64,000 nt of DNA, from the NCBI GenBank assembly GCA_963969595.1, contig OZ018415.1:21333782-21397781 (forward strand), given 5' to 3'. This document shows positions 27,590 through 64,000 of the stretch, piece after piece. The DNA comes from Neckera pumila (lineage: Eukaryota; Streptophyta; Bryopsida; Hypnales; Neckeraceae). The notes beneath the pieces were generated by a model that had not been told where the DNA came from, did not search any database, and saw only the letters and a program-made list of their open reading frames with translations. Every line of letters starts with the position of its first letter. The stretch's first letter is position 1. The position numbers were made by a program, and so were the translations under genes.

Positions 27590-28114
27590 ACTTTTTTTGT
27601 GGGGTAAAATCTATCCCCAGGTTCCACATTGAGATTGAAAGATGGTCATGAAGGCTACGGGGGCACTGGGCCGATGGCACAACGGAGCTCCTCCATTTCT
27701 GCACTCAAAGCCTGGCACGTGGTTCCCAAGTCCACCGCCGCTTTTTTTTTTTTTTTTTTTCTTTCAGTTTTGTTTGTTTCTTTGTTCGCACCCTCCGTGG
27801 TCCTCATTTCGTGCATTCATCCGTGTTGCCGCTTCTTAGAATTGCTGCTGTCGAGAAGACCATGGTAGCTCATGCGGGTCCCAATAGAGGTGGTCCAGGC
27901 CTCCGTAGAACAGAACCAGGAGCTTTTGGCGAAGTAAGGCACCAGGCAGTTCGTTCGCTCGTTCTCATCCAAGGGCGCTCTTTTCTCATCCATCCTCTTC
28001 CCAATGCGTGTTCCTGGTCTTATCAACGCGGGTCAGCAACTTTGACCAGCCGTTCAGCACTCCAGTCTACGGCGCGAGACTGCCTGCATAGTGGAACGCA
28101 AGCTCTTAACCCCA
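27590..28114. promoter_or_regulatory. GC-richer upstream region of the first GDGGSSKWRP locus
   Basis: This block is clearly richer in G+C than its surroundings and leads to the TATA box at 28115. A poly-T run sits near 27744-27761. ORFs on both strands (27629-28119) have no domains and overlap one another, so I treat them as chance. It may hold upstream control sites or an unrecognised upstream exon. Confidence 0.3.
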
Positions 28115-28120
28115 TATAAG
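28115..28120 (+). promoter_or_regulatory. TATA box of the 28421 locus
   Basis: TATAAG in the context CCCATATAAGGACC lies 306 bp upstream of the ATG at 28421. The second repeat-peptide locus has a similar spacing. Confidence 0.5.
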
Positions 28121-28420
28121 GACCCGCACTGGCCTGCGTTCCTCATTCACAATATATTCATCAGTCGACCTCTCTTCCTCGCATTCGATTCTAGCTACCA
28201 GACAATTCAAAGATCAATCTCCAGTCACTGAAGGGTTTCCAAAGGGAGAAGCTTGATCGAGTCCCGGCTTGAGTATTCATTCTTGCAAAAGGCCAGTGCA
28301 AGTTTTGATCCGTTCAGAGATCATCCCAGTTTCTATCTAAGTAAGTGAGTACATAAATTCGTAGTAAGACTTGACAGCAAAGTTAGGTTCTTCGAATTCC
28401 TGTGCCAGCAAGGCATTACA

Positions 28421-28606
28421 ATGGGTGCGCAAGGTGATGGAGGTGGTTCGAAATGGAACCCGTCATCCTACTCTGGGGACTACGAAGACTGCGAAGGTGA
28501 TGGCGGATCCTCCAGATGGAGGCCGCCCTCACACTGCTGCGGCTGCGACGACGGCTGTGAAGGGGACGGAGGATCCTCCAAGTGGAGACCCGGAAACGCG
28601 TTCTGA
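28421..28606 (+). CDS. Small GDGGSSKWRP-repeat protein, locus A (unknown function)
   Basis: The 61-residue ORF starts at an ATG in the context ACAATGG and holds three diverged copies of one motif: GDGGGSKWNPSS, GDGGSSRWRPPS and GDGGSSKWRP. Between the copies lie short acidic and cysteine-containing linkers (DYEDCE and CCGCDDGC). No signal peptide or membrane segment is visible in this exon. A GTAAGT-like donor near 28341 leaves room for an intron in the leader, so an upstream exon is possible. The same repeat, in purer form, is encoded at 34072-34233 on the same strand, 5.5 kb away. An overlapping ORF in another frame (28371-28700) is longer but lacks the conserved motif. I do not recognise the family. 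Possible roles such as peptide precursor or metal or nucleic-acid binding are guesses. Confidence 0.6.
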   Translation: MGAQGDGGGSKWNPSSYSGDYEDCEGDGGSSRWRPPSHCCGCDDGCEGDGGSSKWRPGNAF

Positions 28607-28743
28607 AAGAGTCCGATTTGAGCAAGTGGAGATCAAGCGCCAACTGAAATTCAACAATTTTGTACATACTGCGATCAATACAAACACCGAGCAATGGTAG
28701 TCACCCAGAGTGACCAGTTGCCCAAGCTAGAAATGCGGAGGCG

Positions 28744-29106
28744 ATGGTTCAGAATCTCGAGAGAGAATATTTTTCTCCGAGGCTTCATCCTTTCGGCAGA
28801 TCTGCCAAAAGCATTGGTGTCAAATTAGTTGACCCGTTCGTTCCGACATTCGGAATCATTCATACAAACATTCTTCCGGACCCCGTTTTAATTTGTAGAG
28901 CAGAGGCCCGACGTAGAGTAGCTGCCATTCATCGGTCTGAGCCAATTCCTGGTTGGCAATGTTTAAATAAAAGACCTCAAAGTGAAAAGAATTTTATCTT
29001 AATTAAGCATCCCCTTCCGATCAAACGTGTCTATCTTGTACGTGTATCAAGCGACGATATTGTCATGCCATGTGCGTCCGGGACCATTTGCATTTGCGCT
29101 CTATGA
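28744..29106 (+). CDS. Hypothetical ORF downstream of locus A
   Basis: A 120-residue ORF starting 138 bp after the locus A stop, in the same GC-richer island. I recognise no domain, signal or repeat. Being on the same strand and in the same island, it could be a further exon or a separate small gene. It could also be chance, since the island has few stop codons. Confidence 0.2.
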   Translation: MVQNLEREYFSPRLHPFGRSAKSIGVKLVDPFVPTFGIIHTNILPDPVLICRAEARRRVAAIHRSEPIPGWQCLNKRPQSEKNFILIKHPLPIKRVYLVRVSSDDIVMPCASGTICICAL

Positions 29107-29688
29107 AGCTGGTCTGAATATGGTGAATGACGCCACTGGGCGGCACTGCTGATTGGTTGAAGTGTCGGTAGCAGTAGCTTATACTCCGTATATAACTGCT
29201 ACAGTAGCTTGACACGGCACGGTGCACCTGCATTGTTTTGTTGATTCACTACTTCGGTTCAACTGCGCGCACTGGTGACATACTAACAGGCACGTACAGA
29301 CAAGTGTGTAGCGATGTCGTGTCCATACGAATTTCGGAGGAGAATGCAGACGCACTCGTCCGCTTGCAATCTGAGGTTGATCGTTGCTTCCAACTCCTAA
29401 TGGGTTAGCCATTAATTATGCCCTGGCTTCAATTCAACCCCTGGCATACATTCAGTTTCAGTACCTTATAAATAGCTGCCTCCAATTAATTATGATCGGT
29501 TGCTAGACAATCCGAAGAAGCAACAAGTGATTTCACAAATTTTATGCAACATGCAGACAATCTGCTTTCTGAAGATAGGACGATAGGAGTGTCTAATATT
29601 CCAATTATGTGCAAAATTACTTGGTGAAATCTTCAATTTCGTTAATTTAGTTGGTGCGATTCTAGTCACACTTCCACCCTCTCACTTA
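29107..29688. other. Rest of the GC-richer island, with a further TATA-like site
   Basis: TATAAAT at 29467-29473 in the context CCTTATAAATAGC looks like a core promoter, but no convincing ORF follows before the TTAA element at 29693. If a gene starts here, that insertion probably broke or displaced it. Confidence 0.25.
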
Positions 29689-30220
29689 TTAACCCCTAAA
29701 AGCCCATTGTCCTTTGGGGAACAAAAGCGTTTTCAGACACATACCTATAGGCTGAAATTTTCTTCTGAATTTTTGAAACTTTTTTTGGAGGTAGAAAAAA
29801 TGATTAGCTGTGTGGTAATATAATTTTTTTCACAATCCGTGCCTAGGAACAAAAGTTATGACCAAATAAGCTCAAAACAAGGAATGGGGGGCAGAGCGGG
29901 TAGCAAAAGAAATTTGTACTTTTTATTTTTATTTTTTAGTATTTTATTTCTTATAGATTTTATTTTTGTCTATCTTAAAAGCTTTGATTCATTTCATTTG
30001 GATATGTTATGAGAAAGTTATGGACATTCTTGTTTTTTGGGCAGTTAGAGCATTTTTTTGAAAAAAATAACTTGTAGAACTCATTTTTGAATGAAGTTTT
30101 TCATATTCTTGAAATATTTTCTTAGGCATGGTTTAGTTTACTTGCTAGAACAATCTCACCATTGGGATTAGTGCATTTTAATTCCATCTAAAGTATATGA
30201 ATATTTTAGATTTCCTTCAA

Positions 30221-30405
30221 CAATAGAACCTCCCAAAGTTAATCTTCTCTAAACTAATAAAGTATTGTCAAGAAGTATTGATTACTGGTCCCAACTTAAC
30301 AATATGAACCACATACAAACATCATGACCCTCCCTAATGTAATAACCTCTCTAACTTGATGTGTCAGACCGGTCCCAACTCTATTACTTTAGAGAGGTTC
30401 TATTG
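30221..30405. mobile_element. TA-target miniature element, copy 2 (nested)
   Basis: It starts CAATAGAACCTC and ends GAGGTTCTATTG. In uninterrupted copies of the host family this site reads CCTTCTATCTTG. Here it reads CCTTCAA, then the element, then TATCTTG, which shows insertion at TA with one flank later mutated. Confidence 0.75.
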
Positions 30406-30809
30406 TATCTTGTACCTACTTCTACTTAATTATTTTTTTATTAATGAAAATTAAGTTTTTTTTAATCCTTTTTTTTTTGGTAGATTGTCAACTCAATTCT
30501 CTACTATAAACATTTAAAGCTCAAAACTCTGTAGTGCAAAAATTTTAAGTTAAAAATGTTCAAAGTCAAAAAATCCAATCCCACAATGTGTTGAAAAACT
30601 TGTTTTTTTACTTTAAACAAAGATATCTTGCAATTAGTGCGGTCAAAAATTCTGAAAAGTTTTCCACACATTCTTATACTAGTTAGGTATAAGATCCTAT
30701 GGTTAGATGTGCAAGAAAAACATTTTTAATTTTTTTTACTCTTTGCTAAAAAATGGCAGTTTTGGGTGTTTTTTGGCAGAAAAAAGGCCTTGGGCCCAGA
30801 GTGGCAGAG

Positions 30810-31092
30810 TTGTCATATTAGACGGAATATCACTGTTCACGGACAGAATCGGATCGATTAGGGTTGACCGGCTGCGAACTTCAGAGCCTTGTAACTTTTG
30901 CAAAAAATTCTTCAAATCGAGCAAATGAGATGTTTTTCAGCATCTACAGTTTTTGTAGATGCCAAAAAACATCTCATTTGCCCAATTTGAAGAACTTTTG
31001 CAAAAGTTACAAGGCTCTGAAGTTTGCAGCCGGTCAGCCCTAATCGGTCCGATTTTGTCCATGAACAGTGATATTTTCTCTTGATATGACAA
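30810..31092. repeat. Near-perfect 283-bp hairpin
   Basis: Two arms of about 138 nt pair almost throughout, closing on a loop near 30949-30953 between AGCATCTACA and TGTAGATGCC. The outer ends begin TTGTCATAT, resembling the terminus of the 15-kb hAT element. It interrupts the right end of the TTAA element at 29693-31113. It may be a foldback transposon; if transcribed it would give double-stranded RNA. Confidence 0.75.
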
Positions 31093-31261
31093 CCAGGCTC
31101 AGGTCTTTAGGGGTTAAGTGAGCAAATTTTCATTACCCCCATGTCTATATTTTTTTTTGAACATTTTACACTACAATCAATACGGGATTAAAAAAATATA
31201 TATGTATCTACATTAATTATACATCCATATTTTGTATAACACCATATATTATATTTCATAC

Positions 31262-31455
31262 ATGAGGAATTTTGTTAAAATGGCGGTATTTCGTGTGCCA
31301 TTTTGACTGCATGCCATTTTGACCATCTAAGATAGGCATAGATTTCAAAACGGACATATAAACCATCTAAGATAGATATAGATTTTAGAACAACTGTTTT
31401 GAACTGCAAAAGTGCTAAAGTTCTGGAATGCCGCCATTTTAATAAAATTTGCCAT
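31262..31455. mobile_element. ATGGCGAATTTCG-family miniature element, copy 2
   Basis: The ends are inverted versions of ATGGCGAATTTCGTTAAAAT. They are flanked by ATAC on both sides (31258-31261 and 31456-31459), a 4-bp target duplication. The inside contains TCTAAGATAGATATAGATTT words shared with the other copies. No coding capacity. Confidence 0.75.
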
Positions 31456-31459
31456 ATAC

Positions 31460-32118
31460 CTAAACCTATACCCCACATGTCACATTGTATCAATATACTA
31501 TATTAGAGACCATATCCATATCAAAGGTTTTTTGGTTTTGGTTTTAGAAATGGATGAGCAAATTAGGTGTTTTATTTTTTATTTTCTTAATTCAATTAGG
31601 ATACAAGGAAGAGATGTATCTTTTCAAGGGATAGTAACAAATGTCTTCACACCATGTCTAGGTCTTCAATTTAAAATCTATGAAAATATAATAGCAACAA
31701 TCAATTAAATTTGAAAGTCAATTCAGCATTACAAAAAATGTGAACCCTGTGGAGGGCCATGAAGGATTTGTTTTTTGGCACCCCATGGTGCAAGTACAAA
31801 AAAAATAAAAAGTATAATTTTTTTTTTTAAATTGAAAAAAATAAAAATATGAAAAAAATAGTAAAAGCTGACATGGCAATGATGTGGCACCAATAGTGCC
31901 ACATTAGCTACTTTCATTAAGAAGAAAAAAAGTTTAATAAAAATTTTAACTCCTTTTTTATTGCATTAGGGTAGTTTAGAATTTGCGGACCTCCCTAAGA
32001 CTAAAATTTTTGGTTATGTTAAGTTGACAATACTTCAATACTTTGGACACCTTTCAAACTGCACGTTCTAAAACATATATCTATACATGTTCTTGATTTG
32101 AGACAATCATAAACACAT

Positions 32119-32151
<33 letters not shown>

Positions 32152-32515
32152 CACCTATACTATATCATGTCTATATCTATGTCTATGCATGTGTACATGT
32201 ATCATAAGTTTTGGTGAGTCACACCACTTTCACCCTCGAACACCAAACTTATTACCACGGAAATAACTCTTTTGATACCCTGTGAATCATTATTTTGCTT
32301 CAAAACAAACAAACATACATTGGACATTGGAGGTCAAACTATTGTGCAAGACGTCCCCTTTTTACACAAACTTCCAAGGATGAACATCTGCACTTCTACA
32401 CTTAAATGAATCAAAAGGATTCATTGTCATTCATTGGACTCCTTTAGTGTCGGCAACGGCAACGACGTTACAGGGTTCACAAATTGACGTTATTTGCTGT
32501 GCTCTTTTTGTACGG
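31460..32515. other. AT-rich DNA, simple repeats only
   Basis: (CA)n followed by (TA)n at about 32112-32152. No gene is recognised. Confidence 0.4.
32112..32152. repeat. CA/TA microsatellite
   Basis: Uninterrupted CA units pass into TA units. Confidence 0.9.
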
Positions 32516-32518
32516 TTA

Positions 32519-32923
32519 GAGCATCCCCACTCCAACTCAACAAGTGGCTCAAACTAGGCAAATGGCCGTGCCCAGCCATAATGAGTGCCCCACGGCACGC
32601 ACGGCGAGGGCCAAAAAATGGCCGGGCATGGCCAAATTTGAAGAGCACCCGGCCAAATGAAGAGTCTTGCTTGTGGCTTGGTATGAGTTATTTTATCTTT
32701 ATTTCCAAGTTTCGAGAGACCTTTTCATTTATTCCCCAAGTTTCGAGAGACCTTTTCATTAATGAATGTCTTTCCCCGAGTAGGCATTCATGAGGTAGCA
32801 CTTGGGGGCCGTGTAAACCCGGTTTCCCGTGTTCGTAACCCGTGTTGCCGTGGGGCACATGGGCCGGGCTTGGTCAAATGACACTCCATGTGCTCCCTGG
32901 CCATGCCTGGAGTGGGGATGCTC
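32519..32923. mobile_element. PIF/Harbinger (Tourist-like) miniature element
   Basis: Ends are GAGCATCCCCACTCCA and its inverse, flanked by TTA on both sides (32516-32518 and 32924-32926). The terminus resembles known GAGCATC-type Tourist elements and the target duplication fits. The interior is GC-rich, with repeated CGGCCA/TGGCCG words. Diverged relatives lie at 52535-52955 and 56522-57402. Confidence 0.85.
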
Positions 32924-32926
32924 TTA

Positions 32927-33239
32927 CAACGCAAAGGTGATCAGTTCCAGAGGCAAAAGTCTTCGACAGCTGCGCACGCTGACGCACGTGATGCTCGCAG
33001 TGGTACCGGTACCCCGCCGAGGAATTTTACTTCATCATGCAATGCGGCAGCATTACCTAGCTAGTACGGGTAAATGACGGAAGTGGGATACATTCCCCGG
33101 CGGCAGATTACTTAGCAAGTCAAAAACATCTCTGACCAATATGACCAACCAGTAGTAACTGTCGAAGTTTCATCGCACTTTCCTATGAAACAGTGCTGCA
33201 CTGCTGCTCCTCTTCCAAGAGTGAAAAAGGTAACTTCTG
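32927..33239. other. Moderately GC-rich DNA, unassigned
   Basis: No domain-bearing ORF. It may belong to the island that continues at 33.58 kb. Confidence 0.3.
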
Positions 33240-33243
33240 CTGT

Positions 33244-33573
33244 ATGGTGAATTTCGTTAAAATGGCGGCATTCCATTACAATGGCACGTTATTTCAGTTC
33301 AGAACGGCCGTTCTGAAATCTACACCAGTGACACATTCTGAAAATCTACGCTTTTCCTAGATATCTAAAATCTATATCAGTCCTAGACTTTTTAGAACGG
33401 TCGGTCTAAAATCTATATAGTTCCTAGATGCTTGATCTACAACAGTCTTAGATTTCTGGAATCTATACCAGTTCTAGATGTTCAGAGCAGACAGTCTGAA
33501 AAAATGGCATAAGGAATATGGCACAAGGAAAATATGGCACTGGGAATACCGCCATTTTAACGAAATTCGCCAT
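33244..33573. mobile_element. ATGGCGAATTTCG-family miniature element, copy 1
   Basis: The inverted ends match over about 30 bp, starting ATGGTGAATTTCGTTAAAAT. They are flanked by CTGT on both sides (33240-33243 and 33574-33577). Internal TCTAGA/ATCTATACCAG words are repeated several times. No ORF. Confidence 0.8.
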
Positions 33574-33577
33574 CTGT

Positions 33578-33805
33578 CAACGAGTACGGCTTGGCGCTTG
33601 CAGCTTTGGGTCTTCGATCAGTTGAGGATATATCGCGTTGCCGGCGCCGGTCTACACGAATACCAAATCTACCACTGTTAGACTACGCACATCCTTTGAA
33701 CGCCATCTCAAGCTGCATGCGTTTGATCGACTTTTGGTCCTTCAAGACGGCCGCTGACGAAGTCCGTGGAATTTGAACAGTCTAGATCTGATGATAATCG
33801 GGACA
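33578..33805. promoter_or_regulatory. GC-richer upstream region of the second GDGGSSKWRP locus
   Basis: A short GC-richer block between the miniature element and the TATA box at 33806. The ORFs in it (33478-33776) start inside the element or lack domains. Confidence 0.3.
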
Positions 33806-33812
33806 TATAAAA
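33806..33812 (+). promoter_or_regulatory. TATA box of the 34072 locus
   Basis: TATAAAA in the context GGACATATAAAAGAGC, 266 bp upstream of the ATG at 34072. The leader shares the stretch TTTCTTTCTAAG (33972-33983) with TTTCTATCTAAG in the leader of locus A, a weak hint of common ancestry outside the repeats. Confidence 0.6.
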
Positions 33813-34071
33813 GAGCAGCACAGCTAGAGAATGAACCAAACATTCATTCTTCCTGAACAATCTCATCTGGGTGACCTATCCTCACAATCTGAAGACGCTT
33901 TAGCAATTGATATATAGGACTTGCATCCGAGTCTCCAATTCGACACATGCACACAGTCAGAGACGCATTGATTTCTTTCTAAGAACTGAAATATTTAACT
34001 GATCCAGCGTGAACAGCACTTCCCGAGAGCTTCAGAAGTCCACTAAGTCCTCAGAGAGCGAGCAAATTGCC

Positions 34072-34233
34072 ATGGCAGTGATGGGTGATGGGGGATCATC
34101 GAAGTGGAGGCCCCCGTCGAAGGCTTCCCCCATGGGCGACGGAGGATCGTCCAAGTGGAGGCCTCCGTCCAAGTCTAGTCCCATGGGGGATGGGGGCTCC
34201 TCCAAGTGGAGACCTCCGTCCAAGCATCAATGA
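34072..34233 (+). CDS. Small GDGGSSKWRPPSK-repeat protein, locus B (unknown function)
   Basis: The 53-residue ORF begins at a strong start context (GCCATGG). It reads MAV followed by three 16- to 17-residue units MGDGGSSKWRPPSK with linkers ASP and SSP and the tail HQ. The 14-residue core is identical in all three units. Yet 9 of its 14 codons vary between units, always at the third base and always synonymously. That pattern shows which frame is read and that the peptide sequence is under constraint. The frame stays open upstream to 34009 without an ATG, so a spliced upstream exon is possible. No signal peptide or membrane segment is visible. The units are basic and contain one Trp each. I know no family with this motif. 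A repeated-core peptide precursor is one idea, but no processing enzyme is seen nearby. Confidence 0.7.
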   Translation: MAVMGDGGSSKWRPPSKASPMGDGGSSKWRPPSKSSPMGDGGSSKWRPPSKHQ

Positions 34234-36179: not shown

Positions 36180-39100
36180 TTATCTAATGAATTCCTTCTT
36201 CTTGTCGTCGATCTTTTTCCAATTGCTACAACTGTCTTCAACTGTTGAAGACCAAAGATCTACCATTGGTGCACCTCAATTATTGAAATGATTTGATCTA
36301 CGGACTTCTTGGGTATGTGGATCCGCTAAATTAGCATCTTGAATGACAACGTCATCATCCTCCGGTGCCTCATCACAATTTGAATCATCCTCATCACTGG
36401 CGCCTTCATTGCTGTCATATTCATCTTCTCCATCTCCATCGTTTGTATTCCAATGTCCCTCGACTTCTGGGTTTTCATTTTAAAGCTCTAGAATTGTTTG
36501 ACCATGCCTACGCTTGCGCTTAAACCTCTTGTGTCATTATGCGGCGGGATCCTCTGCATTAGAATTTATAATTGGTCCGCTTTGAACTCAAGGAACAACA
36601 AATGCTGGGGTTGACCTACTAGGTCCTGGTACGTATGTGTTCAGGAACGGTTGTATCACTACATTTGGGTCCCTTGCCCCTATTCCAAGGAGTGGACACT
36701 TAGAATGCCTTGACGATGACGCTTCTCCAATATGACGGTCTCCAGTCCCTCCACGGCCTCCATTTATTCCACGGCCTTCTCGATATTGACCTATTGGATG
36801 ATGAACAGGAGGTCGAGAGGCTGTAGCTGGGCGACTACCAGTACCACCATGTGAAACGCTTTGAAGTGTCACGGCAACATTCCCCACGGAGCCTAACCCT
36901 TCTTGAGAAGGTCTATAGTTGGCATTTGAAGTTGCGGGAGAAGATGGATTAAGAGAACGTGGCAATAGTGTACTCTGGTTAGGACCAATACTATGCCCCG
37001 CAATCAGGGCTGGTACACAGACAAGGTCTTCTTGTGGTTCAATAAATGCAAAAATGTCATTGGGATCTACATGTTGTGGGTCAAAATGCCTTGCCACATT
37101 ACCAACCGTTTGATTTCTTGTAATCGGGCGTGCCATTCTTGTATTTCCAATGTTTGTGCCGTGGTGTCCTTGGACAACTCTATTGCTACCAATTGATGCA
37201 CGCCCTCCCGTAGGCCTTCTATTGCCATCTCGATTGTTAGAAGATCCTCCACAATTCGGATTTGCATTGTTCCCCATGTTTCCTCCGCCATTTCCATTTC
37301 CACCGCCATTTCTTGGAGGTGGGTTGTCGTCAGGTGGGAGATCATCATCATTGTTAGCATTGTTTGGATTGTTGCTCTTTGAAGAAGATGACAAAGGCTG
37401 GACTTCAGCGGTGCCTTCAGTTTGAAGAAGAGAAGGCGAAGGACTGCGACGAGGATTCGGTCTCCAAGGACCCCAATAGCCATCAAGGAGTTCCTCATCT
37501 ACATCGTCACCATCTGAGCCGTAGTACTCTCTGGCTTCCTCTAGGTGATCGGCACCCTGCCTCCAAAGATCTGGGTTTGGTGGATACTCTTCAGGTGCTC
37601 GGTTGCCTTCCATATCAAGCTCCTCCTCTTCCTCTGCTTGCATCACGTCAAATTCCCAATTGCGTTTATTCACCGGAATGGGGCCAAGTCCATCTGAATT
37701 GGAATCTTCCGAGTAGATATTTGCATCATACCAACGAACTGGATTGGCTCCTGGTCTTTCTTGAAGTACACGGCTATTGGTATAAATATATACCAGTGAC
37801 TCTGCCTTTGCAGGGGCTAATCAATTTTGGACCTTATTGAACATTCCCAATTCCCAATTGCAGTATGTCAAATTGCGTCAAATTCCCAATTGCAGTATGC
37901 TCTTATGTAACAATTTCGTTCATAAGAGCATGCCGAACATGTGAGGGATAGAATATGCACAACAATTTTAGAAAGAGCTTGATCTCCAACCCTGTGCCAC
38001 CATTGGTAGAGAAGCATCTGTGTCACGCGGATGTTGGGTGTCTCAGCCGCACTATATGGTCCAGTGCCCTCCTCAAATTGTGTTAATTCCGCCAACACGT
38101 CATCAAACCTCACACCTACTACATGTTCCAATTTGTGGATGATTTGATACAATGCACAAAGGGCAACTCCATCTTCCCTGAGTGCCACATTATCCAAAAG
38201 ATATGGATTCAAAACGGCTACAACATAATGAACATCAGTAAAAACCATGTCCCATCTTGTTTGGAAAGACTTCTCCAACACGTCTGCTATGTCAGCTCGT
38301 AAGCAAAAAGGTGGTTCTCTTAAAGAATGCATGTGCCCTCGCAAATTGTGCATTACGAGCCACACCCGACCCATGGCTGGTTCTCGGCCATCAAACACAC
38401 GCAACGCCTTCAACACGTCTTCAGTCATGTGCACGTAGTTCACGCATCGTTGCCAGAAAGACATATCTGAATTGGTTTGCTTCACATTACATGAAGTGGT
38501 AGCTGGTCGCAGTCCATTTTGTACGTCTCGTAGGGTATCAAAGTAATTTAAAACACGTGGATGGTTTTCAATCGCTCCAATACTCCTCTGAGTTTCACCA
38601 GTTGACTCATCATGAGGAAATGACAAGCAAAGCGGGTGTCGTTGGGCACTATAAGTTGCAGGTTTGGACTCAACTCGCAAAAAATAGACATGGTCGCATG
38701 ATGGTTCCAAATGTATTGGCACAATCCTTTCACCTTCTCAATTAAATCTTTAAAATCAGGGATTTTGTCCCAATCTTCCAACAGGAGATCCAATGCATGT
38801 GCCATGCAGCCTTGCTTGAAAATGTGTGGATATGTTAGAACAATATCGTCCATTGCTCCAAGCATGTTTGTTGCATTATCCGTACAAACTTGCGTCACAT
38901 ATTTGGGACCCACCTTCTCAATGTAAATTTTCATTTGGTCCGCTATACAACGCATGTTTTTTTTTTGTGCAGTAGTGTCAATGAACCCCAAAAATACATC
39001 ACCTGTGGGGCATGACATCATTACATTCATGAGGGGCCTCCGATTGACATCATCCCAACCATCGGTACATATTGACACCCCGTAATGCTTCACTACAAAA

Positions 39101-39879
39101 CCAACCTTGACTTGAATCTGCTTCTTGATTTGCATCCTCTTCGGTTCAATCAAATTAGTCTTGAATTGATGATAAGAAGGTGGATTGTATTCAAACTTTG
39201 CCACGGAGGTTGCCTTGACCGCCTCAATGCAGGTTGCATTCCTTGCCACATTGAAGGGCACATTTGCCTCATAGAAAAAACTTGCCCACTTCTCATCCAA
39301 CTCCTTCCTCTTTGCAATATTGAATGCGTCTAACACGCGTTGCTGACGTAATGGCCCAGATCTCATAGAATTTGATGTAGCAAGGCTACTGGACGTGCGT
39401 AAAGGATCATTTCCTCCGGAGAGGTTTGGCCCTTCTTCTGATCCCCCACCCGTCACCCCACCCGTCACTTCATTTTGGACGGATTGACTTGAAGTTGCAA
39501 CTGCTGGTGCTCTAGATGGACCACTTGGAACTGATTCTCCTTCATACATGTCCTTAGGATTCATTCGTTACGGGACAAAATTTGCACAATTGGCAAATTT
39601 ATGTCGCATCGGTCAGGGCATACTATGGCAAATTGACCTCTTTGTCTTGGTGCCATACCCAAAATGTGCAAAAGCACGTTCACGTTTGTAACTGAATGTC
39701 CCATTGCAAAAAACACAAGTCACTTTAGTCCATTCTCTGTAAAATTGTACCACAGTTCCCATTCTTTTGTTTGCTTCCGTTGACTTTCCATTACGTTCAC
39801 GAATAATTTCAAACTCCTTCCTCCTTCTTCGTGTTGAATATAAAAAATGATAATCCACATCACAAAATACCAGTAACAA
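36180..39879 (-). pseudogene. hAT transposase (BED finger, DUF659, hATC), broken
   Basis: Read right to left, a BED-type zinc finger comes first (39879-39613), with CVFC and H-x-C spacing. The DUF659 region (39564-38548) has the motifs TDGWDD, CTDNATN and HALDLLLEDW, which include catalytic acidic residues of the hAT RNase-H fold. The hATC part (38722-37868) ends WWHRVG and ILSLTCSACSYERN, then KAESLVYIY after a break. A long tail follows, with acidic stretches, NG-rich low complexity (37673-36588) and a basic patch KRFKRKRRHG. Damage: in-frame stops at 39613 and near 39570, a frameshift near 38550, a small duplication plus stop near 37820-37870, a stop at 36588 and three more before 36180. 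A TATA box at 40044 and the GC-rich array at 40059 lie upstream. An intron upstream of the finger is possible. Confidence 0.88.
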
Positions 39880-40255: not shown

Positions 40256-40752
40256 CTTTCAAATGCTCTTGGGGCTTTGGGCATGGGATCCTTCCTTTTC
40301 ATGGATAGGGGGGAACTATTAAAAGTAGCCAGGTCTTTACATGAAAGTCAAATGCCTTAATAAAGAGTTCAACCGACAAAGATTTGCAAGGGACTTCATG
40401 GAAGAACACGTCCTCTTTCTTGTGGCGGAACTTCTTGTTGTTTATCTCCTCAAAGGCTCAAACCCTTGAGAACTAGTCCAAACCAAAATATATTGAATGA
40501 TGGAAACTTAAGAGTTAAGACCCAAAATTCTTTGATGTTCATATTTTTCCTTTGCTAGAGCGAATGGTTATTTTTCGTAAAGGCTTTCTTTCATTCTTTG
40601 TAGAATTTTGCTTATCTTGGATCTAAGTTTAAATGATTTGTTTTTTGGGAATAATTGTCACAAAGGATTCTTTTCTTAAATAATCTACAACTTGTATTTT
40701 TTTGGATTCATCATTCATGCATGTAAAGGAATCCATTTTTTATTTTTTGGAT
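40256..40752. repeat. Duplicated segment following an array, copy 1
   Basis: After the array come GGCATGGGATCCTTCC and GGGGGGAACTATTAA. The same order, array then these words, recurs at 41676-41910 (GGCATAGGATCCTCCC and GGGGGAACCCATTAA). A later shared phrase is GAGAACTAGTCC. No domain-bearing ORF is present. Confidence 0.5.
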
Positions 40753-41215
40753 ACAAGGGGTTCTTCTTGAATTCAACCTACAAGTTATATTTTTTTGGTT
40801 TGAAAAGAAGGGATCCAATTTTAATTTTTTGGGTACAAGGGGTTCTTCTTGAATTCAACCTACAAGTTATATTTTTTTGGTTTGAAAAGAAGGGATCCAA
40901 TTTTAGTTTTTTGGGTACAAGGGGTTCTTCTTGAATTCAACCTACAAGTTATATTTTTTGGTTTGAAAAGAGGGGATCCATTTTTTATTTTTTGGATACA
41001 AGGGGTTCTTCTTGAATTCAACCTACAAGTTAAATTTTTTTGGTTTGAAAAAAAGGGATCCATTTTTAGTTTTTTGGGTACAAGGGGTTCTTCTTGAATT
41101 CAACCTACAAGTTATATTTTTTTGGTTTGAAAAGAAGGGATCCATTTTTAGTCTTTTGGGTACAAGGGTTTCTTCTTGAATTTGAGTATTCAACCTACAA
41201 GTTATATTTATATGT
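40753..41215. repeat. 82-bp tandem repeat, about 6 copies
   Basis: The phrase ACAAGGGGTTCTTCTTGAAT starts at 40753, 40835, 40917, 40998 and 41080, and a variant starts at 41162, so the period is 81-82 bp. Each unit has GGATCC and a T-run. Several open frames across it translate the repeat on both strands and are not genes. Confidence 0.92.
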
Positions 41216-48439: not shown

Positions 48440-50017
48440 CTATATACGATAACAACAATCGGGCATGGTCCAATAGTGAGGTGCCTTCTTCAAAGTGTCT
48501 AGAACGTCAGGCACAGACGCCCTCTTGTCTACATCTTCTTTCATGAGGCTCACCAGCTTAGTCTTCAAATTCTGATACTGCTCTGGATTTTTGGTCGTAA
48601 AATATTTGGGATCCCATTCTTCTTTCCAAATTTGAAATGCTTCCATTCCGTTGCATATGCATTAGCAGCCATGGAGTACAAGTATTTTTTCTGCATCACT
48701 TCAAACGAGGTCTCCGACCCCTTCTCTCCGTACACGTAGAACAATTTAGGGGCTATATATTTTTGTTGTTTTTTCTCCCGTTCGAGCTCCTGCACAATTC
48801 AATAACCATACTTTGATGGCTCCCTCTCTACAACTTGGCCAGAGAGCCCCCAATTGCAAATCCCTATGTACACTGTGTTCTCTTTCCATTCATCAAAATG
48901 GAGCAAAAAGTTGGATGGAGTAATGTCATTGTGTAAATATTGTGCTTTATGGCATTTTCCCACTGTGACAAGCAATGATAGAGCCAAATGCACGCAGTTT
49001 TCGCGATAAATAGCAACCCAACCGAGTTCTTCCTGTGTCAACCCTGTATCATATTGTCTCATGATGTCATCCACATCCAATGTTTTGCTCACTTTTGAGT
49101 TGTACTTGGCCAAGAAAGAAATTAAAGACCCTCCATTCCACCATAGCATGTAGCCTTCCATTGTTTTGGGATGGATGCATGCAAGTCTTATGATACCAGG
49201 ATGTATCATTGGACACCCTCCCGCCTCACTCACAATAGCTTGGCGCTTCTCCTTCTCATTTGAGGTCTTCAAACTCTTCCCGACGAAGCAAATCCAACTG
49301 GGAATGCTTTGCAGTCTCGTGAGCACCACCTTCCTCACGGTCCCATATGATCCAGTCGTGGTCTGATTCGGCATGGGAATCACTTTCATGCAACTTTTCA
49401 GCCACTTAAATGTTCCGCTCATGCAATGAGCTTGTATTTGGTCTTTAAGAGTCGCTTTCCATGGTGCTTGTTTCTTTCTACGCAAAGAAGAATACTGTTG
49501 GGAGAACTTCTGGATCTGGGTCAATTTCGAAGCGAATTCCTTGTCATGCGTGTCCCAATCACTACCATCCTCCTTCTTCTTCATGTGGTAACACCATTTT
49601 GCCACAATATTGGTGGTCAACTGCAACACTTGTTAATCCAACCACTCAGAGTGCAACTAGTAATCCTGATAATTGTTGAATCGCTCGGATGCTCCCAATC
49701 TGGTCTCCAACTCTCGCCGCACTTTGGCAGTCAACTTGTGGTATCCTTCTTCGTTGTAGTTCACATACTCTCTGGACAACATTCCGGAGCTTCGTCGTGT
49801 GTAAAAAAGTACTATATTGCTCTAGCTTCAAGAACATATTCATGGGGGGGCATGTCAGGATTGGGTTGATTTTTGCGCTTCGACCTGCTGGATGATGAGG
49901 GATTGGATGACTCTGAAGCCACTGACATGTTTGTGGCTGGCAGTACCACCTCTGAAACTGCATCCAAGTCTACAAACACCGGGTGGTGACTCGATGACCA
50001 CTCCCTTCTCTTGCCAT
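48440..50017 (-). pseudogene. Protein-kinase-like gene, cargo of the hAT element, broken
   Basis: It runs right to left from ATG 50017. The N-terminal part has Ser-rich SESSNPSSSSRSKRK. The kinase core lies in 49629-48799: GSYGTVRKVVL is the glycine loop, FVGKSLK carries the ATP-binding Lys, and a Glu precedes HPGIIRL. YLHNDITPSNFLLH is the catalytic loop, with HND in place of HRD but Asp and Asn kept. The DFG position reads NWG, so the metal-binding Asp is replaced by Asn. The C-lobe follows (48795-48440). Breaks: frameshifts near 49980, at a run of seven C near 49845, near 49635 and near 48640, and an in-frame stop at 48799. The exact kinase family is unclear. Confidence 0.75.
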
Positions 50018-61254: not shown

Positions 61255-61882
61255 GTCAACGGGATCGCCGGATGCTGACCTCGAGGAAGTGGGTGGTCTT
61301 TAACATATGCTGGGATAGCTTCCTATGACTTGAAAAGTTTGTCGAGCCAAAGAAATAGCTTTTCGTACAAGTAATCATCTCTCATATCACCATCCCAAGT
61401 GTTTGGGAAAATGGCGCTATGACAGTTGTTCTAGAGGTTCTTTAATGGATTGTCATTGATGAGGAGAATATTTTCCTGTGTCTGCAAATTCAGCTTACGG
61501 GCAAAGTGTGACAGATCCTTTAGAAAGTAGGGCCTATCCAGACAATGCCAGTCTCTGTAAGACGAGAGTGTGCAGTCCTCCTGCGTGAGAACAGGCACAT
61601 CCTTTGGCTTCACAATTGCCGAGGACAATATCTGGTTGAAAGCAAAAGTCACATTTTGTTTTGTCATACTGCTCCAGAACGTGAGCTTAACAGTCCTATG
61701 CAGCCAGTCCAGGAAGTGTCCGCATTTTGGTCGCACGGCATAGCGACGTCTATTACGATCATCGACTGTCTTGTAAACTAGAACTCCATTCAAGTCAAAG
61801 ATCACAAAATACAACCGCGGTTCTATCTTTTTCAAAGACTTTGGCACATCTTCACGAGAGACTTTGGTGAGTCAGCAACTTG
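61255..61882 (-). pseudogene. FCP1/NIF-type phosphatase domain, broken
   Basis: The frame starting at 61847 (minus) reads into FVIFDLNGVLVY, the DxDx(T/V) motif of HAD-type FCP1/NIF (CTD small) phosphatases with the second Asp changed to Asn. It continues with RPKCGHFLDWL, WSSMTKQNV, RPYFLKDLSHFAR and LLINDNPLKNL, where I(D/N)D is motif III. An in-frame TAG at 61431 follows. The frame then resumes as NNCHSAIFPNTWDGD and LWLDKLFKS, stops at 61323, and again resumes as EAIPAYVKDHPL, a typical C-terminus of this family. The family dephosphorylates Ser/Thr; loss of the second Asp and the two stops argue that this copy is inactive. Upstream exons appear at 61969-62730. Confidence 0.65.
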
Positions 61883-62730: not shown

Positions 62731-64000
62731 TTGTTTGCTGTGTGATCAACCTGGGCCATAACAATTTCCTTTTTACTGGACGATCAGGGGATCCCTTGAT
62801 GCTTCTGTGTTCGCCCTACTCCCCTGATCACGGTCTGCGCAGACTGGTGTCGGGGGATCTTTCAAGTGAAACCCTGATTCAAGTCTGTCAGCATCCCTCT
62901 CCGTGAGGTCTCCACCAAGGGATCACTTAGGCCTGCAAGAATTACAATCGCAAGATGGACACCTAGGAGGAATCTAGGGACGCAGTATATTGTTTTTGGG
63001 TGGGAAGCATATTTGGAGGCCAACGGCAAAATTGGTTTGCTAAGATTTTTCCATACACAGAAAATTCCCTAGTCACTGATTTCACAAGGAGAAGAGAAGT
63101 TTTGATTCTCCTATGACCTTTGTGCAAAGTAAGAATATGAGTTTGCACATATTTTGTGGAATTTCATGAGAGGTTCCACAAAAAGATTTGGAATTTTCTG
63201 ACTTATAGAAAATGCCTTTCCGAATGGTCAACCACCAAACGTTGGACGGGAAATTCTTGTAAATCACCCAGGTTGCGGTTACATCTCATTAAAAATTAGA
63301 GTACCTTGTTTTATGCTAATAAGATGCCCCAACAATTTTTAAGACTTTTTGATAGCCAGAAGTGCCCAAACCAGCAAGATTTTCCTACAATTGCAAAATT
63401 TAAAGAATCCGGTGGAGTTGACCAATGCCCCGGGAGCACACGGAATCAGAATGAGGTCCAAGTTGGGTCTTTTCTTGCTCTCTTAGACCTTCTGAAGAAC
63501 TTAGGCTAATTACTTTTCTTAGAAAAGTCAAATTCCAAGATTTGAATTTTTACCTCTTTTTGGTGTTCAGTTAGTACTAAGTATTATTGCTCTTTTGAGG
63601 TCTAATTAAGAGTGTAGAGGATCATTGGACTAAAAATGGCCTTTTGAAGCCAGTGGCGCAATCCGTTTGTGATTTGGAGTTATTCTCCAAAAGTTAAAAA
63701 TTTGGTCCAGTGTAGAAAGTCAAAAATTAGAAGATTAGGATGAAAATCTCAAGTGATAAGATTACTAGTAGAAAAATAGAGGAGGTGAGCACCCTTGAAA
63801 ATCTATATAAAGGGCTTATTTTCCTCTCACAAACACCCCTTGGACCATTATTTTGGCTTTTAAAATACGTTGGTCCATTTGTTTGGATTTTTTTGGCCAT
63901 ATTTGGCCATTTTTGAGCCAAAAGTTGTAAAGGTGTGTTTTTGGAGCATTTTAAGCTCCATTGTTGTTAATTTTCAAGCTTTCTTTGAAGGACATTGAGG
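62731..64000. other. Right flank, unassigned, with a TATA-like site
   Basis: No ORF with a recognisable domain. TATATAAA at 63803-63810 followed by GGGC looks like a core promoter or an LTR start, but the window ends before a gene can be seen. Confidence 0.3.

Follow-up and report, generated by a model that had tools for sequence, protein, structure and literature searches.

Likely genes of a previously undescribed tryptophan-motif repeat family in a paralogue array of the moss Neckera pumila

The question raised by this locus is whether two short open reading frames (ORFs) in a 64,000-nucleotide stretch of the Neckera pumila genome (contig OZ018415.1, positions 21,333,782 to 21,397,781; hereafter the window) are genes and, if so, what proteins built around one short repeated motif might do. 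A preliminary description, made from the sequence, had placed on the plus strand two ORFs, here called W1 and W2, with three copies each of GDGG-x-S-(K/R)-W-x-P, and both were borne out. The ORFs and their motif units are as follows.

28421 to 28606 (stop codon included), plus strand: locus 1 (W1), acidic type-1 member, 61 amino acids (aa), net charge -5, five Cys
28433 to 28465, plus strand: locus 1 unit 1, GDGGGSKWNPS
28496 to 28528, plus strand: locus 1 unit 2, GDGGSSRWRPP
28562 to 28594, plus strand: locus 1 unit 3, GDGGSSKWRPG
34072 to 34233 (stop codon included), plus strand: locus 2 (W2), basic type-2 member, 53 aa, net charge +6, no Cys
34084 to 34116, plus strand: locus 2 unit 1, GDGGSSKWRPP
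34135 to 34167, plus strand: locus 2 unit 2, GDGGSSKWRPP
34186 to 34218, plus strand: locus 2 unit 3, GDGGSSKWRPP

The obtained results indicate that these reading frames are likely genes of a previously undescribed family. The exact matches of a degenerate DNA pattern of the motif in the window were the six copies at W1 and W2, and 100 shuffles of the window gave a mean of 0.01 matches (maximum 1) at up to three mismatches. A seventh match, at 62846 with three mismatches, was rejected because its translation does not give the motif. When six-frame segments of the window were compared with a unit profile, whose source units include the six W1 and W2 copies, the two ORFs obtained E-values of 6.7e-14 and 9.4e-12; the next value was 0.77, and nothing of note was found elsewhere in the window. 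The repeat had been proposed to comprise 14 residues, which holds for locus 2 only. The common unit has 11 residues (GDGG-x-S-K/R-W-x-P-P), and its last proline, at position 11, is variable in locus 1. In locus 2 alone, the copies are identical over 14 residues with a period of 17 residues, and the locus doubles as a 51-bp tandem repeat at the DNA level.

In the genome, which has a size of 339.5 Mb in 18 contigs and in which the window corresponds to C8:21333782-21397781, W2 as query gave 13 places at E up to 0.001 and W1 gave 15 at E up to 10; a database relative, P0015, served as a further query. The last of the 15 W1 matches, on C6 at E 9.2, is probably due to chance. At least 14 paralogues were found, including W1 and W2: 13 on C8 within 287 kb, from 21,196,253 to about 21,482,974, and one on C2 (40,549,922-40,550,267). 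The array is thus far larger than the window. DNA was read directly over 154 kb leftward of the window and over 10 kb on C2, and the right-hand part was read as 3.1-kb loci only. From left to right, the C8 paralogues are T3, T4, T1b, T1c, T1d, W1, W2, L007, L006, L008, L003, L004, and L009; T4 is an 18-aa single-unit ORF detected by the scan only, and T1c has four units. Since types 1, 3, and 4 were found on the left and type 2 from W2 rightward, W1 and W2 stand at the boundary of two sub-arrays. Beyond the units, no clear DNA similarity between W1 and W2 was detected (best match E 0.13), and types 1 and 2 have only the unit in common. The alignment of W1 with T1c extends beyond 1 kb and that of W2 with L004 spans some 650 bp, with the promoter included in both cases, and L007 and L008, which encode the same protein, are 97% identical across 2.3 kb. 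Thus, the tandemly duplicated family suggested by the preliminary description is supported by at least 13 paralogues on C8; however, W1 and W2 belong to separate subfamilies and are array neighbors rather than recent duplicates of each other.

Purifying selection acts against amino acid change in the proteins of this family. The three 14-codon copies of locus 2 vary at nine sites, all of them third codon positions, and the encoded peptide is unchanged. At least 11 changes separate the copies and 11 of 11 are silent, for which the probability without selection is 9.6e-8 to 3.4e-7 (transition weights 1 to 4), and in the five alternative frames the same DNA gives between 4 and 9 altered residues out of 13 among the copies. 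For the six cores of W1 and W2 together, the minimal changes at codon positions 1, 2, and 3 were 1, 3, and 16, respectively, and pairwise comparison of the unit copies over 11 codons gave proportions of silent (pS) and amino-acid-changing (pN) differences of 0.60-0.98 and 0.00-0.24. Among type-1 paralogues, the ratio of nonsynonymous to synonymous substitution rates (dN/dS) was 0.09-0.26 in all six pairs (summed pN/pS 0.21); for type 2 together with T3, it was 0.05-0.64 across 21 pairs (summed pN/pS 0.25). These tables were compiled without L008 (whose protein is the same as that of L007), T4, and the C2 copy. A binomial test applied to ten pairs out of the 27 revealed an excess of silent changes, with P between 7.0e-3 and 1.6e-6, T1c-T1d and L006-L009, the pair with the highest ratio, not being among the ten; all pairwise statistics rest on non-independent paralogues and ignore gene conversion.

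Searches of protein databases returned 21 matches, designated P0001-P0021, some of which are weak (for instance, P0021 at E 1.6). P0008 had an E-value of 7.4 in one search and 3.6e-25 in a later one whose query profile contained P0008 itself, along with P0001-P0007, and in which only the 7988 most word-sharing candidates were scored. In a set of 45 [GD]DGG.S units from W1, W2, and the 17 database proteins that are not of the Sphagnum type described below, Trp occupied position 8 in 43, Lys or Arg preceded it in 42, and Pro was at position 10 in 23; these units were chosen without regard to Trp, but the proteins themselves had been retrieved by their similarity to the full motif. The only matches with species names were P0016 (Sphagnum fallax, E 6.3e-3) and P0018 (Sphagnum magellanicum, E 0.11), which P0017 (E 6.1e-2) and P0020 (E 1.0) resemble. 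A comparison of profiles A4 and A5 gave a probability of 96.6 and an E-value, for that one comparison, of 4.8e-10. The relationship of the Sphagnum-type proteins to the W1/W2 family is therefore regarded as probable only, because glycine-rich composition may raise the score of such a comparison. The hypothetical proteins BDL97_07G095400 (S. fallax) and CY35_07G103200 (S. magellanicum) resemble W1 and W2 in having three units in order, GDGGSSNYKPP, GDGKGSSWRPP (GDGKGSPWNPP in S. magellanicum), and GDGGGSKIKPG. They differ in being 128 and 121 aa long, with 56 and 49 residues ahead of the first unit.

No known family was recognized. With an E-value limit of 10, Pfam yielded none for either W1 or W2, late embryogenesis abundant (LEA) proteins and dehydrins included, and none above the cut-off for ten relatives at E up to 1, P0001 having one sub-cut-off match to PDE6_gamma. 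NCBIfam gave no family for five proteins, and Rfam gave no match. Neither the PDB, where W2 had no match and the profile retrieved only JetA (E 2.9), nor PHROGs (best E 0.31) provided a credible hit. One scan of GTDB contigs found 42 prokaryote stretches that fit short patterns, none of which was confirmed as a relative. A candidate viral relative from one scan of IMG/VR (locus L001, matched by A1) was rejected, as the match lies antisense to a phage gene that encodes DQPPPGGTTVAMPGA repeats. The motif strings searched and the Sphagnum gene names were absent from 5.39 million open-access papers, although subscription papers or supplements could still contain them; a search for WG-repeat strings was likewise negative, and the literature listings obtained had nothing on the W1/W2 family. 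The earlier view that no described family has this repeat thus agrees with the Pfam, NCBIfam, and open-access results, and the proposal of an unrecognized repeat-defined family is strengthened by the paralogue array, the selection, and the 21 database matches. The outcomes set beforehand as speaking against that proposal, namely, a lack of similar ORFs in relatives or a repeat belonging to a known transposon or to a larger known protein, did not materialize.

What the proteins might do was approached through their anatomy. The paralogues are 18-77 aa long and carry one to four units each, and all 14 have a [GD]DGG-x-S-[KRNQ]-W unit. In the paralogues and the database proteins that are not of the Sphagnum type, the spacing between units is 16-25 residues for 39 of 42 intervals, the full range being 12-41. 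The linkers vary and the unit is constant. Type-1 members have a net charge of -4 to -7 and five Cys, part of them in a (C/S)C(G/V)CDD(G/D)C linker, whereas type-2 members have a net charge of +4 to +8 and lack Cys; over all paralogues, the net charge spans -7 to +8. The Cys linker, at 28529-28561 in W1, is kept in four type-1 paralogues, T1b, T1c, and T1d being the others, and it is a possible metal site. The content of AVILMF residues is 5-20%, and a crude test revealed no hydrophobic N-terminal stretch in the 14 paralogues (the highest 10-residue Kyte-Doolittle mean within the first 35 residues was 0.35). AlphaFold2 modeling of W2 from 13 sequences gave a mean predicted local distance difference test (pLDDT) score of 59 and a predicted template modeling (pTM) score of 0.13, with no secondary structure; the proteins are thus predicted to be disordered or unfolded.

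The reading that we favor, with a probability of about 0.5, is that the family consists of small, predicted-disordered, multivalent Trp-motif proteins that dock on a folded intracellular partner. Each Trp, with its basic neighbor and Gly-Asp-Gly-Gly lead, would make one contact, and copies mostly 16-25 residues apart could provide avidity or link partners together. Linkers that are acidic and carry Cys in type 1 and are basic in type 2 would then confer different secondary properties on the same docking head. The part that stays constant is a short motif with an aromatic center, a basic neighbor, and a flexible GDGG lead, and the linkers, charge, and copy number drift; repetition of a linear binding motif for the sake of avidity would be expected to leave such a pattern. 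Several points weigh against docking. Trp is present only in the middle unit of the Sphagnum-type proteins, so that two of their three units have lost it, the middle unit of T2_L04 also lacks its Trp, and the dN/dS of the pair L006-L009 reaches 0.64. Multivalency is not universal, as T4 (unless it is a truncated copy) and P0007 have one unit, and the number of repeats could be the result of replication slippage alone. A low pLDDT obtained from 13 short sequences is weak evidence for disorder. Finally, a precursor cut into peptides would give the same sequence pattern.

Such precursors would be non-secretory: cytosolic proteins released on damage and cut into near-identical GDGGSSKWxPP peptides for a surface receptor. 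The tandem copies, the linkers with Lys or Arg in type 2, P0002, and P0009, the varying gene and unit numbers in the array, and the lack of a hydrophobic N-terminus in all 14 paralogues are consistent with this, and plants offer precedents in the non-secretory peptides SYS, PEP, ZIP1, and GRI (PMC11756074). However, type-1 linkers are acidic, with a dibasic site in none of four type-1 proteins, a conserved cleavage site was not seen, and units joined by short linkers make up nearly the whole protein, without a long pro-region; on balance, we consider peptide release rather unlikely. Small size, hydrophilic composition, and predicted lack of folding would also suit LEA-like stress protectants, that is, bulk glycine-rich proteins for drying with little sequence-specific binding, and mosses often dry out. 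A bulk role is, however, ill-suited to a near-invariant Trp and to opposite subfamily charges, none of 12 proteins matched an LEA or dehydrin family in Pfam, and protection of this kind appears doubtful.

A further possibility is that the proteins are decoys resembling Argonaute (AGO) hooks, whose spaced Trp would fit into the Trp pockets of an Argonaute and restrain silencing by small RNAs. This is attractive because AGO hooks are disordered variable repeats with conserved Trp, two or three of which are enough per AGO (PMC10991848). The hook criterion in that source is a minimum of three scoring Trp motifs under the Wsearch plant matrix. The family has predicted-disordered repeats with a conserved Trp, here in a Gly/Ser/Asp/Lys/Pro context and at the spacing given above. 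However, only 1 of 45 units has a GW/WG context, W1 and W2 lack a Pfam match, and in Arabidopsis AGO10 a plant-specific Trp likely blocks one of the three pockets (PMC12477606). The family may work like an Argonaute hook but is not classed as one, and decoys acting on silencing seem improbable. The same low odds apply to the proposal that endogenous moss Trp-motif decoys, acidic and basic, occupy the Trp pockets of Argonaute or another central hub protein; if true, such decoys would set the strength of a pathway, with their dose tuned by the expanding gene array. It is hardly credible that the loci are not genes at all but a coding-looking minisatellite or transposon fragment: the 51-bp tandem repeat and a region rich in transposon-like sequence would fit, but the change in locus 2 is silent only, the paralogues keep the same frame and start, matches occur in other genomes, and neither ORF fits any family. 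An antimicrobial or general nucleic-acid-binding role was dropped because the net charge of the paralogues runs from -7 to +8.

Docking on a partner thus remains our preferred reading, and a family absent from the libraries used here, with its strongly selected short motif and large gene array, would offer a direct route to a binding partner in, probably, mosses. The family also shows how very small proteins can be assembled from a single linear motif and multiplied within a lineage, and why such proteins may be overlooked by gene annotation and domain libraries.

The starts and promoters of the two loci were compared with those of the paralogues. A good start context and a TATA box about 270-310 bp upstream had been noted at each locus; both ATGs indeed have a purine at -3 and G at +4, and TATA-like sites lie at -307 (W1) and -266 (W2). 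Across the 14 paralogues, G is at +4 in all, a purine is at -3 in 13, and unit 1 starts at residue 5 in 13, including W1 and W2. Met stands at -4 from the first unit in 12 of the 21 database proteins; the nine others are the four Sphagnum-type proteins, P0011, P0013, and P0014 (in which the first unit is decayed), P0004, and P0019. An in-frame stop is met after four (L004) and three (L009) open codons upstream, leaving little space there for an earlier start. A TATA-like site was found 252-346 bp upstream in 10 of the 14 paralogues, a count given without comparison with the chance expectation. The two promoter features are as follows.

28109 to 28135, plus strand: probable core promoter of locus 1, with the TATA-like box ATATAAG at 28114; a 27-nt block identical to that of paralogue T1c
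33806 to 33811, plus strand: TATAAA at -266, probably the TATA box of locus 2

The block shared by W1 and T1c, which spans the TATA-like box, is ACCCCATATAAGGACCCGCACTGGCCT. Against L004 and L009, the 50-base bin with the locus 2 TATA is 75% identical and the next bin (-250 to -201) 88% identical. The 280 bp before the start contain no ATG in W1, T1b, T1c, and T4 and one to five ATGs in the other ten paralogues. An intron in the 5' untranslated region of locus 1 (GTAAGT at 28339) was rejected, since the site is not conserved, being deleted in T1c. Both loci had been described as lying in GC-richer islands; this is true of locus 1 (local peak 0.48), whereas locus 2 is hardly an island because the surrounding region of 0.40-0.46 GC is broad, from about 32 to 41 kb.

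Between the loci, the stretch at 32516-32927 has 20-nt arms at 95% identity (GAGCATCCCCACTCCA...TGGAGTGGGGATGCTC) with TTA on both sides, and we take it to be, likely, a miniature inverted-repeat transposable element of the Tourist/PIF-Harbinger type. A fold-back element with GGAATACCGCCATTTTAACGAAAT-type ends occurs twice between the loci (33243-33574 and 31255-31458); an end of this type also precedes the ATG of L006, a paralogue without the usual TATA-like box, by about 200 bp. A near-perfect palindrome is present at 30826-31075 (80-nt arms 94%, inner 46-nt arms 89%). Elsewhere in the window, the minus strand carries a DUF659 ORF (38551-39567, E 1.5e-33), a domain presumably linked with hAT-type transposases, a protein-kinase-like stretch under the Pfam cut-off (48802-49632, E 1.3e-6), and an NLI-interacting-factor-like phosphatase domain (61434-61871, E 1.2e-7). 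At 40726-41182, an 82-bp unit is repeated 5.6 times in tandem with 94% matches. At the left end of the paralogue array, an integrase core (rve, L010:4411-5124, minus strand, E 3e-16) belongs to an element that looks like a Copia type, and a clathrin adaptor small-chain domain (L025:4993-5511, plus strand, E 1.2e-9) lies at about 21.332 Mb of C8, just beyond the left edge of the window.

Among known systems, we know of no sequence motif in common between the W1/W2 family and systemin, PEP, ZIP1, or GRI. The precursors of these peptides lack a signal peptide (PMC11756074), as does the W1/W2 family by the crude hydropathy test; the family differs from them in having several equal units. Argonaute-hook (GW/WG) proteins such as NRPE1, SPT5L, and SPT6L have a conserved Trp in disordered variable repeats (PMC10991848), and the repeats of the W1/W2 family, with their own conserved Trp, are predicted to be disordered. 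In the W1/W2 family, however, the neighbors of the Trp are mostly K/R on one side and R/K/N on the other, and the proteins are stand-alone microproteins rather than domains of large proteins. In the moss Physcomitrium patens, four peptides encoded by long non-coding RNAs or small ORFs are reported to affect growth (PMC8658490). They are small, like the proteins described here, and are likened to them by description only, with no relation claimed; set against them, the W1/W2 family is multigene and its repeat unit is conserved, with promoters also conserved in some pairs.

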